Position numbers and translations under genes: made by a program
The notes under the pieces: generated by a model
What the model was told of the DNA's origin: nothing
The model's database searches: none
The model's input: only the letters and a program-made list of their open reading frames with translations
DNA from: Flammeovirga kamogawensis
Lineage (GTDB): Bacteria; Bacteroidota; Bacteroidia; Cytophagales; Flammeovirgaceae
Direction: 5' to 3'
Length of the DNA: 64,000 bases
NCBI RefSeq assembly: GCF_018736065.1
Contig: NZ_CP076128.1
Span: 620,001 to 684,000 of the forward strand
In this document: in pieces, positions 24,523-27,447 of the stretch
Layout: each line of letters opens with the position of its first letter
Numbering within the stretch: position 1 is the first letter of the stretch

Positions 24523-25611
24523 TTACTTAAATCCAGGTGTTCTATCCATTATCCAATCAAAAGGACTAATTTTCCAATCAAACCTGCGGACAATATTAAA
24601 CCTAAATTGTCCCATCATGTATAGTTTTAAGTAATCATCAGGGGTGTTTATGTTATAACTTTCTAAAACTATAGAAAGCCCAACGTATGTTTTATCATTA
24701 TTATAACCAATAGCACTACGAGCGTTAACTTTAATCCCTCCACCAATAGTTACTTCTGTTGTATTGCCTTCAATATTTTCCATTGTAGAATTACCAATTG
24801 CCAAACCATAACCAAAAGCTGCAGATCCTGTTATGAAAAATTGTTTGAAAAGAACAATTGAAAAAGCATATCCACCGGAAAAACCAGTACTTGTGTACCA
24901 TCCATCTTTAACATTTGATATTAATCCATGTTCTCCATCTTGGATAAGTGCAGAATCAGCTGAAAAATGAAGTACATTTAAATAAGGGCCGTAAATAGGT
25001 GAACCTGCAGTTTTTTTCTGAACTTCTGTCTGTGAAAAAGCGGCTCTAAAAGAGAATTTTTCATAATTATGAATTTTGAAAGCAGTAAAGCCAATTGTAT
25101 TAACTTGCATGTCGCCTCTAATTTCTTGAGGTGGGGTAGTATCTGGAAATGGAGGGATGTTTTTTATTGTGTTTTTTAGATAAAAACCTTGATAAAACTG
25201 TAAGCCGAAATCAATAGCATATTTACGTCCATACATATAAGAACGCATGTCTAGTTTCGTGGTTTTACCATAAATATCATCGTCGTTATTAATTGCGGGT
25301 AGATTAAGGCCGATATTAATTCCTAATCCTCTATAAGTAAAACCAAAGCCAACATTTAAATTCCCATTAGGAGAATAAATTATATTATTGGAGCGGTCAT
25401 TCTTATCTTGGATTAAGAGGTCGTTAAATTTATAGACATTATAAAGACGAATATGTAAATCATCATTATAAGAGGTGTAATAAGTAGAATCATAATCTAA
25501 TTTGGCTTTTTGATCCTGACCAAAACAAGTAGGGTGATTTAAATTAGGAAGTATAATAAATATAAAGATATGCCAAACTAAAGCTTTAAACTTAATCAAA
25601 ATCCAACCCAA
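24523..25611 (-). CDS. DUF4421-type outer-membrane protein, copy B
   Basis: A 362-residue paralogue of copy A, with the same ordered motifs (NGNLNVGFGFTYRGLGINIG, SYMYGRKYAIDFGLQFYQGF, SFRAAFSQTEVQKKTAGSPI). No ATG is available; starts are TTG at 25611 or TTG at 25599. The second gives a better signal peptide, beginning IKFKALVWHIFIFIIL. Both starts overlap or abut the stop of the dnaX tau frame (25592-25594), so translation may be coupled to tau. The function is unknown. It probably sits in one transcript with dnaX and copy A. Confidence 0.6.
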   Translation of the reverse strand: MGWILIKFKALVWHIFIFIILPNLNHPTCFGQDQKAKLDYDSTYYTSYNDDLHIRLYNVYKFNDLLIQDKNDRSNNIIYSPNGNLNVGFGFTYRGLGINIGLNLPAINNDDDIYGKTTKLDMRSYMYGRKYAIDFGLQFYQGFYLKNTIKNIPPFPDTTPPQEIRGDMQVNTIGFTAFKIHNYEKFSFRAAFSQTEVQKKTAGSPIYGPYLNVLHFSADSALIQDGEHGLISNVKDGWYTSTGFSGGYAFSIVLFKQFFITGSAAFGYGLAIGNSTMENIEGNTTEVTIGGGIKVNARSAIGYNNDKTYVGLSIVLESYNINTPDDYLKLYMMGQFRFNIVRRFDWKISPFDWIMDRTPGFK

Positions 25612-27447
25612 GTTTTTGCCTTAATGTTTTTAATGCAGGGTACTTTTCTTGTAGATAATTAAATTTATCTTGAGCAGAATACATTTTTTTAGGTTCATTA
25701 GAATTTTCTAGCTGAACTATACGAGTAGAGATCTCGATTGTTTCATTTTTTAAATCAGTACGTAATTGTCTAAGTAAATCTGAACGGACAATTGCTAAAT
25801 GGTCATTTTGGATAGAGTTAGTAATATCTACAATTACGTTTAATTGGGAATCTAAAGAAATGGTAGCTTCATTTAAAAGAATGCTAGCAAATTTACTTTT
25901 CCCATTAGAACTGTAGTTATCAGCAAAAGATTTCCATACTTTTTGAGCAGATTCTAAAGTGAAAGATTGACCAATGGATTTTGAAACTTTCTTTTTTGAG
26001 GAACCTCCAAAATTATTAGGAGGAGGTGGAGGCATATTTGCAGCAGGAGTATTTTGATGTTGATTTGCTGCAAGAATATTTGATTTAGTCTCATTTGCCT
26101 TAATATCTTTAGCCTTTCTAGAGAGTCCACTTTTGAGTTGTTCTAGATTGCCCGATATTTTAGTTGTAGGCTGTATTTGGATTTTATTTGCTTCTGCTTG
26201 TAGTTCTTCTAAAACAGAAATAGGAGACGATGTATTATCTTTTGAAGTTTTACTCTCTTGCTTAGGAGAGCTTTTTGTTTCTAAAGATTTCTGTTTAGCC
26301 TTTAGTTCAGCTAATCTTTTTTTTTTATTTCTATTTGAGCAAGACGAATTGCTTTGTTGATATGCGACATTTTCATTAATGTCAACTCAACATGCAATCT
26401 TTGATTTTTACTCTCTTTATATCTTAAATCACACTCACTACCTAAATTTAAGGCAGTCATAATAAAAGATTGTGGTACTTCTTTCGCTTGCTGATTATAT
26501 CGTTGTTTTACAGTGTCAGAAACATCTAGTAAATCTAATGTAACTGCATCTTTACAAACCAAGATATTTCTGAAATGCTCCGAAAGGCCAATTATGAAAT
26601 TATGACCATCAAAACCTTTTCTTAAAATTTCATCAAAAAGAAGTAATGCTTGAGATGCATTACCTTTATTAATAAAGTCGGTAAGCTTAAAGTAATAATC
26701 GTAATCAAGAATATGTAGATTATCAACAGTTGTTTGATAATCAATTGATTTGTTATTAGAAAATGTACCAATCATATCAAACATAGATAAAGCATCACGC
26801 ATACCTCCGTCTGCCTTTTGAGCAATTAGATGCAAAGCATCATCATCTGTTTGAATTCCTTCTTGCTCAGCAATATCTTTCAATTGCTTAACAATATCTT
26901 TTACCGTGATTCTATTAAAATCAAAGATTTGACATCGAGAAAGAATTGTAGGTAAGATTTTATGTTTTTCTGTAGTTGCTAAAATAAAAATAGCATAAGC
27001 AGGTGGTTCTTCTAATGTTTTTAAGAAAGCATTAAAAGCTGCAGTAGAAAGCATGTGTACCTCATCAATAATATAAACTTTCTTTTTGCCTGGTTGAGGG
27101 GCATAACGTACTTGTTCAATAAGGTTACGAATATCTTCTACGGAGTTATTAGAAGCAGCATCAAGTTCAACAATGTTTAAAGAAGCATTATTGTTAAAAC
27201 TTGTACAAGAATTACAAGAATTACATGGGTTTCCGTCTTCTGTAGGAGTGTCGCAGTTAATGGTTTTTGCCAAAATACGAGCGTTTGTTGTTTTACCAAC
27301 ACCTCTTGGTCCACAAAATAAAAAAGCCTGTGCTAAATGATTACTCATTACAGCATTCTTTAATGTATTTGTGATATGTTCTTGACCAACAACGGATTGG
27401 AATGTATTCGGACGGTATTTACGTGCCGAAACAACAAAATTCTCCAT
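25592..27447 (-). CDS. dnaX: DNA polymerase III subunits gamma/tau, read through an A10 frameshift
   Basis: DnaX is the clamp-loader ATPase. The zero frame (27447-26311, 378 residues) has Walker A GPRGVGKTT (46-54), four zinc cysteines (C65, C75, C78, C81), YIIDEVHMLS and ILATTEKHKILPTILSRCQ, and ends in KKKD and TAG directly after ten As (complement of 26317-26326). The -1 frame is open from the A run to a TAA at 25594-25592. It reads through a charged linker (KRLAELKAKQKSL) and the proline-rich PPPPPNNFGG to a C-terminal domain ending LRQKLGLDFD. One added A, or a -1 slip, gives a 618-residue tau. This may be programmed recoding or a miscounted homopolymer. Confidence 0.85.
26311..27447 (-). 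CDS. dnaX: Short (gamma-like) product of dnaX, zero frame
   Basis: The unshifted product, 378 residues: the AAA+ ATPase domain, zinc module and the collar domain (RKGFDGHNFIIGLSEHFRNI), ending two codons after the A10 run. This is the region kept in E. coli gamma. In E. coli the zero frame makes tau and a slip makes gamma; here the arrangement is reversed. Whether this short form is made in the cell cannot be decided from sequence. Confidence 0.55.
   Translation of the reverse strand: MENFVVSARKYRPNTFQSVVGQEHITNTLKNAVMSNHLAQAFLFCGPRGVGKTTNARILAKTINCDTPTEDGNPCNSCNSCTSFNNNASLNIVELDAASNNSVEDIRNLIEQVRYAPQPGKKKVYIIDEVHMLSTAAFNAFLKTLEEPPAYAIFILATTEKHKILPTILSRCQIFDFNRITVKDIVKQLKDIAEQEGIQTDDDALHLIAQKADGGMRDALSMFDMIGTFSNNKSIDYQTTVDNLHILDYDYYFKLTDFINKGNASQALLLFDEILRKGFDGHNFIIGLSEHFRNILVCKDAVTLDLLDVSDTVKQRYNQQAKEVPQSFIMTALNLGSECDLRYKESKNQRLHVELTLMKMSHINKAIRLAQIEIKKKD
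26317..26326 (-). promoter_or_regulatory. A10 slippery sequence in dnaX
   Basis: The coding strand reads ATA AAA AAA AAA GAT TAG. It contains in-frame A-AAA-AAA heptamers suitable for -1 ribosomal slippage and a long enough A run for RNA polymerase slippage. A weak hairpin (AAAGATT with AATCTTT, enclosing AGC with GCT) follows or overlaps it. No Shine-Dalgarno-like stimulator is seen upstream. Confidence 0.5.

Follow-up and report, generated by a model that had tools for sequence, protein, structure and literature searches.

The marine bacterium Flammeovirga kamogawensis carries a dnaX gene, which encodes the clamp loader of the DNA replication machine, in the 64,000-nt stretch of DNA analysed here (contig NZ_CP076128.1; hereafter the window). 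This gene raises the question of how its longer subunit could be made: the zero frame encodes gamma and ends directly behind a run of ten As, and tau lies in the -1 frame. Based on the anatomy of the locus and on a survey of relatives across the phylum, we consider it very likely that these ten As form a programmed recoding site that has been conserved, a reading drawn from sequence comparison, and we give a probability of roughly 0.75 to the fuller proposal that it is such a site and that transcription, not the ribosome, does the recoding.

Anatomy of the dnaX locus

The gene lies on the minus strand. Its zero-frame ORF (26311..27447, 378 aa) starts with the ATG at 27447 and encodes a gamma-like clamp-loader ATPase, as judged from the ORF itself and from its matches to the NCBIfam families NF011531 (E 3e-212, positions 1-365 of 614) and TIGR02397 (E 1.9e-130) and to Pfam domains. 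The minus-strand sequence spanning the run, GTCTTGCTCAAATAGAAATAAAAAAAAAAGATTAGC (26345..26310), contains the ten As at 26317..26326 in the phase xxA AAA AAA AAA, a predicted site of slippage or shifting. The zero-frame codons read ATA AAA AAA AAA GAT TAG; the frame thus ends at GAT-TAG straight after the run (26326..26317, then 26313..26311), just as the preliminary description had reported, and the third frame is closed by a TGA at 26307..26309. The -1 frame is open to 25592 (25592..26326) and comprises 244 residues, the three lysines of the run included. We assign it to a linker and the tau C-terminal domain from the ORF, from its match to positions 391-613 of the 614 of NF011531 (E 4.5e-19), which represent the tau part of the DnaX family, and from its dN/dS; the same description had already called this C-terminus tau-like. 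All 49 extensions scanned, which come from both arrangements and include that of the window (alignment A2), match NF011531, while the extension of the window has no match in Pfam at E 0.001, nor at 0.1. It is under purifying selection, with dN/dS values of 0.067 against the nearest relative (L081-L085) and 0.040 for L088-L089. The roles of the two frames are reversed with respect to Escherichia coli and Thermus, gamma being in the zero frame and tau in -1, and from the zero-frame stop at 26311 we infer that tau would depend on recoding; on both points the earlier reading holds.

The predicted structure of the extension (mean pLDDT 75.4, pTM 0.47) has no Foldseek match at E <= 0.001. In the structural comparison, residues 119-205 align best with DnaA domain I (4tps_B; Z 9.1, rmsd 2.5, 80 aligned residues), followed by the mitochondrial ribosome assembly chain 8csp_a (Z 9.0) and DciA (8a3v_C, Z 8.2). 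These best matches (DnaA domain I, ribosome-assembly proteins and DciA) lie within about 1 Z unit of each other, and no solved tau entry is among the matches listed, so that the comparison speaks neither for nor against tau domain V. As general background, tau domain V is similar to DnaA domain I and to DciA. A profile search of solved structures with the tau extension returned nothing useful.

Long homopolymers are scarce in the window, which has three runs of at least nine As or Ts. These give 4 matches to A9, whereas dinucleotide shuffles average 19.9. The whole genome (6.97 Mb) contains 29 overlapping matches to A10, which correspond to 26 runs of at least ten; besides the one in dnaX, 7 such runs sit well inside a long ORF.

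Run length and reading frame across the phylum

Relatives of the gene were located by tblastn in three samples: 80 of at least 592 confirmed relatives, 85 of the 377 genomes that matched among 390 searched, and 95 of the 146 that matched among 148 searched. The choice within these sets was made manually, with preference for a single genome per genus and, beyond the class, for those with short ORFs; the proportions given below are therefore not population estimates. Twenty-one weak matches that are not dnaX (L082-L084, L093-L110) were excluded, and two short loci (L165, L285) were left out of the 264.

Among the resulting 249 non-redundant dnaX genes, 210 have 9-11 As at the gamma/tau boundary (A10 in 178, A9 in 20, A11 in 12), and the run occurs in all three codon phases. 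Eight As are found in one gene and seven in 15; in the 39 genes lacking a run of at least nine, the longest stretch of As was simply taken as the "run", and the frame label is unreliable. Of the 72 genes with more than 50% GC in their gamma part, 46 keep the run, and elsewhere in the 210 genes only 4 A runs of at least nine occur in 370,001 nt. Tau is in the zero frame in 86 of the run-bearing genes, in -1 in 122 and in +1 in 2; in other words, it lies in the zero frame or one added A away in 208 of 210, and in the frame needing one A fewer in the remaining 2. Run length is independent of this frame, since A10 is present in 72 of the 86 tau-zero genes and in 105 of the 122 tau-minus-one genes. 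Closer to the window, every one of the nine distinct Flammeovirga genomes (G000-G008) shows A10 in an identical phase and tau in -1. Ten As and tau in -1 are also found in the seven other family genera that were readable. This is the comparison of run length in relatives that the preliminary description had called for, and it agrees with the arrangement in the window. The readings for the family genera, like those for all but the first of the one-A comparisons below, passed a narrow motif filter that missed 42 dnaX loci of 285, and later 20 of 264.

The frames that do not lead to tau are closed early. In 199 of the 210 genes both reach a stop within 10 codons, compared with 24.9% of 27,242 control positions. 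Where tau is in the zero frame, the +1 frame stops within this distance in 78 of 86 genes (43.5% of controls), and where tau is shifted, the corresponding figures for the third frame are 121 of 124 genes and 52% of controls.

On a FastTree phylogeny of the gamma part only, the frame of tau has changed at least 26 times, or 23 times when branches with support under 80 are collapsed; 200 shuffles of the labels gave a mean of 66 changes and a minimum of 55. Eight changes lead to clades of at least two genomes with support of at least 80. Single genomes account for 16 of the 26, and some of these may reflect a homopolymer miscall. In several cases a single A separates genes with near-identical flanks: L062 (A10, tau in the zero frame) and L069 (A9, shifted); L120, L124 and L128 (A10) and L121 (A11); L261 (A10) and L260 (A9); and L265 (A10) and L271 (A9).

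Proposed polymerase slippage and the alternatives

Under the reading that we prefer, RNA polymerase would slip on the ten As and generate mRNAs with 9, 10, 11, 12 or other numbers of As. Transcripts carrying 10 or 13 As are predicted to end at the TAG and those with 9 or 12 at the TGA, in either case within a few codons, and would give gamma; messages with 11, 14 or 8 As would continue in the -1 frame, also open to a ribosomal shift by -1, and would give tau. Both clamp-loader subunits would thus come from one gene, and it would matter little which of the two is templated, which would explain why relatives share the run but differ in whether tau is in the zero frame or in -1. That slippage, a mechanism which the preliminary description had brought up, is the likeliest route is suggested by the run length and by the stops in both other frames; its occurrence, its rate and the production of both proteins are presumed. 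We think it somewhat more probable than the contrary that the phylum maintains a frame-tolerant cassette, in which selection preserves how long the A run is and that either of the other frames has a stop, and the templated subunit drifts, with at least 23 switches.

It is unlikely that the tau frame is reached by the ribosome rather than RNA polymerase, through a -1 shift on A_AAA_AAA of the kind that occurs in E. coli dnaX. Ten consecutive As contain this heptamer in any phase, and UUU is the sole lysine tRNA (8 copies) among the 89 tRNA genes found, a condition that accompanies ribosomal shifting in E. coli. The list of 89 has no Ala or Ile tRNAs and is therefore incomplete, which slightly lowers the odds of this alternative; the single lysine anticodon is compatible with ribosomal shifting and does not help to separate it from slippage. 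Short heptamers replace the run at the same boundary in some relatives (A_AAA_AAG in L125, G_GGA_AAG in L054 and L058, A7 in Pontibacter), where the ribosome is the likelier agent, and a dnaX from Chlorobium is named as a ribosomal candidate in the discussion of the gene in PMC5009743. The strong excess of tau in -1 over +1 would also suit the ribosome, but it equally fits a polymerase that mostly adds an A. Moreover, the runs cluster at 9-11 As, although seven would be enough for the ribosome, and the +1 frame of tau-zero genes has its early stop even though a -1 ribosomal shift in these genes would never enter it. As for RNA structure, the window alone shows some folding downstream of the run (z -2.43 over 91 nt, -0.82 over 60 nt), but the consensus in three Flammeovirga has 3 pairs, none compensatory, and no general downstream stem-loop was found in the 210 genes (z < -2 in 10.5%, against 10.0% of controls). 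Immediately upstream of the run, where hairpins are reported to stimulate slippage (PMC5009743), they are commoner than in controls (20.5% against 9.1%), a modest difference that ignores kinship among the genes; the upstream fold of the window itself is weak (z -0.69).

The other explanations are far less probable than ribosomal shifting. Ten-nucleotide homopolymers are error-prone in some technologies, and many of the frame changes on the tree are confined to single genomes, so one might suppose a sequencing or assembly error hiding a true run of 11 As and one intact ORF. We reject this as very improbable, given the nine Flammeovirga assemblies, the seven further genera of the family, the tau-minus-one genes throughout the wider survey, the well-supported changes leading to whole clades and the early stop in the third frame of shifted genes. 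The preliminary description had held that accurate reads with 9 or 11 As would change the picture, 11 restoring an intact gene; the answer here is an indirect one, from the Flammeovirga assemblies and the seven further genera, all of which have ten As and tau in -1. Just as improbable is a dnaX split in two, with gamma and a free C-terminal protein started within the -1 frame. An ATG at 26035 would indeed yield 147 aa (25592..26035, from the ORF list), but the extension has no methionine at all in four of the nine Flammeovirga (L088, L089, L091, L092), the segment before this ATG also evolves under purifying selection, with a dN/dS of 0.17 relative to its nearest relative, and the extension is continuous with gamma in the 86 tau-zero genes of the survey. 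Because the internal ATG is not conserved, the 147-aa ORF is probably no independent gene, and a separate C-terminal gene was set aside, ATG starts alone being considered. Gene decay, in which a recent frameshift in tau is rescued by chance slippage as in insect endosymbionts, is the most improbable of all. The dnaX of Blochmannia does have a poly-A frameshift of that kind (PMC3017870), but here the arrangement is common to the family and to distant clades and is kept under selection, so that it is not a sporadic frameshift, and the genome (7 Mb, rated 100% complete) is not reduced.

In this genus and in 124 of the 210 run-bearing genes, that of the window included, tau would be reached only if messages or ribosomes deviate from the template, and a gene caller that looks for a single ORF would annotate a shortened gamma followed by a stray ORF. 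If the frame-tolerant cassette is real, the switching would itself be a natural read-out of N and N+1 As occurring at about the same frequency among the messages. Genes with swapped frames, sometimes a single A apart between close relatives, form natural pairs in which to study how precisely the gamma:tau ratio has to be kept, and equally how slippage of RNA polymerase is tuned.

Comparison with known recoding systems

In E. coli, as in the window, a change of frame at an A-rich site gives two subunits from one dnaX gene, but according to the accounts in PMC5009743 and PMC3711429 it is tau that is templated there, and the site is A_AAA_AAG, flanked by a Shine-Dalgarno-like element upstream and a stem-loop downstream. 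The window has no zero-frame A_AAA_AAG, only A_AAA_AAA within its ten As, and tau would be the shifted product. The likeness to Thermus thermophilus (Larsen et al. 2000, as summarised in PMC1088944 and PMC5009743) is closer, since that dnaX also has at least nine As with stops in both other frames and makes tau and gamma from one gene; the direction is opposite, with tau templated and slippage leading to gamma in Thermus, and gamma templated and slippage proposed to lead to tau here. In Shigella flexneri mxiE, as described in PMC1088944, a longer product likewise requires slippage on a homopolymer, but the gene is unrelated and the run consists of Us. The poly-A frameshifts of Blochmannia and Buchnera belong to the insect endosymbionts, to which the preliminary description had alluded; what they have in common with the window is a poly-A frameshift in dnaX that is open to rescue by slippage. 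This parallel is weaker than it seems: the endosymbiont cases appear in PMC3017870 as sporadic indels in reduced genomes and are not reported there as a conserved cassette with both stops, whereas the run studied here is kept across much of the phylum, GC-rich genes included, with stops in both other frames.

The closest precedent is the two-ORF dnaX arrangement of Antonov et al. 2013 (PMC3711429), with gamma in the zero frame, tau in -1 and a poly-A run of about 7-10 at the junction, for which recoding was considered necessary for tau and transcriptional slippage was proposed. Ten As stand at the junction in nine of the 17 genes of that study, which treats them as one arrangement in 12 genera; Flammeovirga is not named in its passages on dnaX. 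Atkins et al. 2016 (PMC5009743) discuss the reversed dnaX and note that one nucleotide suffices to reverse the roles. The reversed arrangement pointed out in the preliminary description is therefore not new, and the gene in the window belongs to a known kind, which the conservation of its homologues matches: 122 of the 249 genes have tau in -1 behind 9-11 As. What our analysis adds to the arrangement as described in 2013 is that the site has been followed across 249 genes, in which the templated frame has repeatedly switched back and forth.

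The dnaX gene and its -1 extension

The preliminary description of dnaX, namely the ends of its two reading frames, the run of ten As (A10) and the 244-residue -1 frame, proved correct in content and coordinates, and both parts of the gene match the NCBIfam DnaX model NF011531 (614 positions). On the minus strand, the zero frame extends from 27447 to 26311 and encodes 378 amino acids (gamma, the short clamp-loader product), with ATA AAA AAA AAA GAT TAG as terminal codons. The A10 run lies at 26326..26317, and from it the -1 frame is open to 25592, providing 244 residues, including three run lysines, of the long product tau. 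The zero-frame product covers the first 365 positions of the model (E 3e-212) and the -1 product positions 391-613 (E 4.5e-19). Among the matches listed, Flammeovirga sp. OC4 and F. pacifica are the closest named relatives; the genome itself (G000) comprises 6.97 Mb in 4 contigs.

We infer from sequence comparison that the -1 frame encodes a translated part of DnaX. For the window gene against L085, its nearest relative, dN/dS was 0.014 for gamma and 0.067 for the extension, the tau part beyond the run; the corresponding values for L088 and L089 are 0.008 and 0.040. More distant pairs gave 0.16-0.27 (4/7 computable), values that are less reliable near synonymous saturation. Moreover, all 49 extensions scanned, both arrangements included, match NF011531. 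A free C-terminal protein is unlikely, because the first in-frame ATG of the window extension (26035) is unconserved and the extensions of four of the nine Flammeovirga genomes lack methionine entirely. The next ORF downstream (24523-25611, minus strand, TTG start by mechanical call) shares 20 bases with the end of the tau frame, an overlap that would point to coupling with ribosomes reading tau.

Distribution of the run and switching of the templated frame

In 9/9 distinct Flammeovirga genomes (two of them also sampled as L001 and L002), the run is exactly A10, its phase is identical and tau lies in -1. A10 with tau in -1 also occurs in the seven other genera of the family (L111, L116, L160-L164); the family search covered 18 genomes, one of which gave no match and another a locus (L165) too short for reading. 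The nine Flammeovirga genomes and seven further genera make a sequencing artefact very unlikely as the source of A10. Runs of at least ten As are scarce, with 26 in all of G000. Outside dnaX, 14 overlap no ORF of at least 60 aa, three lie at ORF first codons, one falls early in a 93-aa ORF, and seven are inside long ORFs. These seven ORFs, with an internal run of ten A or T at the centre of 4-kb loci L340, L348, L349, L350, L351, L357 and L360, could also yield slippage products.

The wider survey combined 80 related loci (from at least 592 relatives), genome searches and hand-picked regions; 262 of 264 dnaX genes were readable and 249 were non-redundant. A run of 9-11 As marks the gamma/tau boundary in 210/249 genes (A10, 178; A9, 20; A11, 12), proportions that are not population estimates since the sample was partly hand-chosen. 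The run is kept in 46 of the 72 genes whose gamma part exceeds 50% GC, and elsewhere in the same 210 genes runs of at least nine As number only four in 370,001 nt. It occupies all three codon phases across the survey, and the frame that carries tau beyond it is the zero frame in 86 genes, -1 in 122 and +1 in two. Run length is independent of this frame (A10 in 72/86 tau-zero versus 105/122 tau-minus-one genes). Shorter runs comprise one of eight As and fifteen of seven. Eleven of the latter, named Pontibacter (L003, L004, L008, L009, L011-L013, L015, L018, L020, L026), have tau in the zero frame and an immediate -1 stop, which looks as if a ribosomal A_AAA_AAA site had taken the place of slippage.

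When the frame state of the 210 genes was mapped on a FastTree phylogeny of the gamma part, at least 26 changes were required (23 with branches below 80 collapsed), versus a mean of 66 and a minimum of 55 in 200 label shuffles. Ten changes head clades of at least two genomes, eight with support of at least 80; the other sixteen are single genomes and may include miscalls. One-A differences between near-identical flanks were found in a Siphonobacter pair (L062, A10, tau zero; L069, A9, tau -1), between L120, L124 and L128 (A10, tau zero) and L121 (A11, tau +1), and between L261 (A10) and L260 (A9) and L265 (A10) and L271 (A9).

Polymerase slippage and ribosomal shifting

A stop lies no more than ten codons past the run in each of the two non-tau frames in 199/210 genes, compared with 24.9% of 27,242 same-gene control positions, and the farther of the two stops lies at a median of three codons. 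In tau-zero genes, such stops close the -1 frame in 84/86 (controls, 48.5%) and the +1 frame in 78/86 (43.5%); of the 124 shifted genes, 121 have the third frame, used by neither gamma nor tau, closed in this way (52%). Exceptions with stops more than 15 codons past the run are L037, L139, L161, L201, L232 and L264. Run and stops would form a device with three outlets, one per frame. This guarding of both other frames fits mRNAs of several lengths, whereas a pure -1 ribosomal shift requires a stop in only one.

Slippage, in which RNA polymerase adds or drops As in the mRNA, is our preferred mechanism on these sequence patterns, since run lengths cluster at 9-11, both other frames are guarded, no general downstream stem-loop was detected (z below -2 in 10.5% of genes versus 10.0% of controls) and hairpins directly upstream of the run are in modest excess (20.5% versus 9.1%). 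Slippage on nine As or Ts has been reported as efficient in vivo (PMC5009743; see also PMC1088944). Tau in the frame needing one A fewer is nearly absent (2/210), which fits insertion-biased slippage and, equally, a -1 ribosomal shift. Ribosomal shifting, the less preferred explanation, is also consistent with UUU being the only lysine species among the 89 tRNA genes found in G000, an incomplete list, and with ordinary shift heptamers at the same boundary in relatives: A_AAA_AAG in L125 (genome G373), and G_GGA_AAG followed by TAG in L054 and L058 (Arcicella and a Cytophagales MAG). These three loci lack a long A run; their gamma is in the zero frame, and the -1 frame has no stop in the sequence shown, beyond which L058 soon ends. 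Their boundaries are, as judged from these motifs, putative ribosomal-type shift sites with reversed roles. Given such heptamers, slippage and ribosomal shifting seem to replace one another among relatives. L120, L124, L128 and L121, from one genus, carry a strong hairpin immediately downstream of the run (z -3.5 to -4.8), atypical of most other surveyed genes. Contig C1 of G000 also holds six same-anticodon tRNA tandem arrays (147158-147901, 2650536-2650936, 2688744-2689445, 3600823-3601721, 4194455-4195213 and 731351-732014), containing 8 Val, 4 Phe, 7 Glu, 8 Lys with one Leu, 7 Asp and 6 Met.

Relation to known systems

Titles and abstract openings of open-licence PubMed Central papers on dnaX and hairpin-driven slippage yielded no description of how frequently the templated frame switches; this repeated switching may be new, though it follows from earlier proposals. 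The window dnaX is of a kind already described by Antonov et al. 2013 (PMC3711429), who reported the same arrangement as a novel dnaX type in 17 genes from 12 genera, nine with ten As, and proposed slippage. Atkins et al. 2016 (PMC5009743) also discussed this type and noted that a single nucleotide can reverse the roles. The clearest upstream hairpin is that of Rufibacter, where three of four loci (L006, L007, L025) have a 10-bp hairpin abutting A10; the upstream 40-nt piece folds at -16.5 kcal/mol and resembles a terminator hairpin. A hairpin abutting the run is reported to stimulate slippage in a Roseiflexus IS element (PMC5009743), and Rufibacter dnaX, in which the hairpin likewise adjoins the run, would be a good natural case of hairpin-stimulated slippage.
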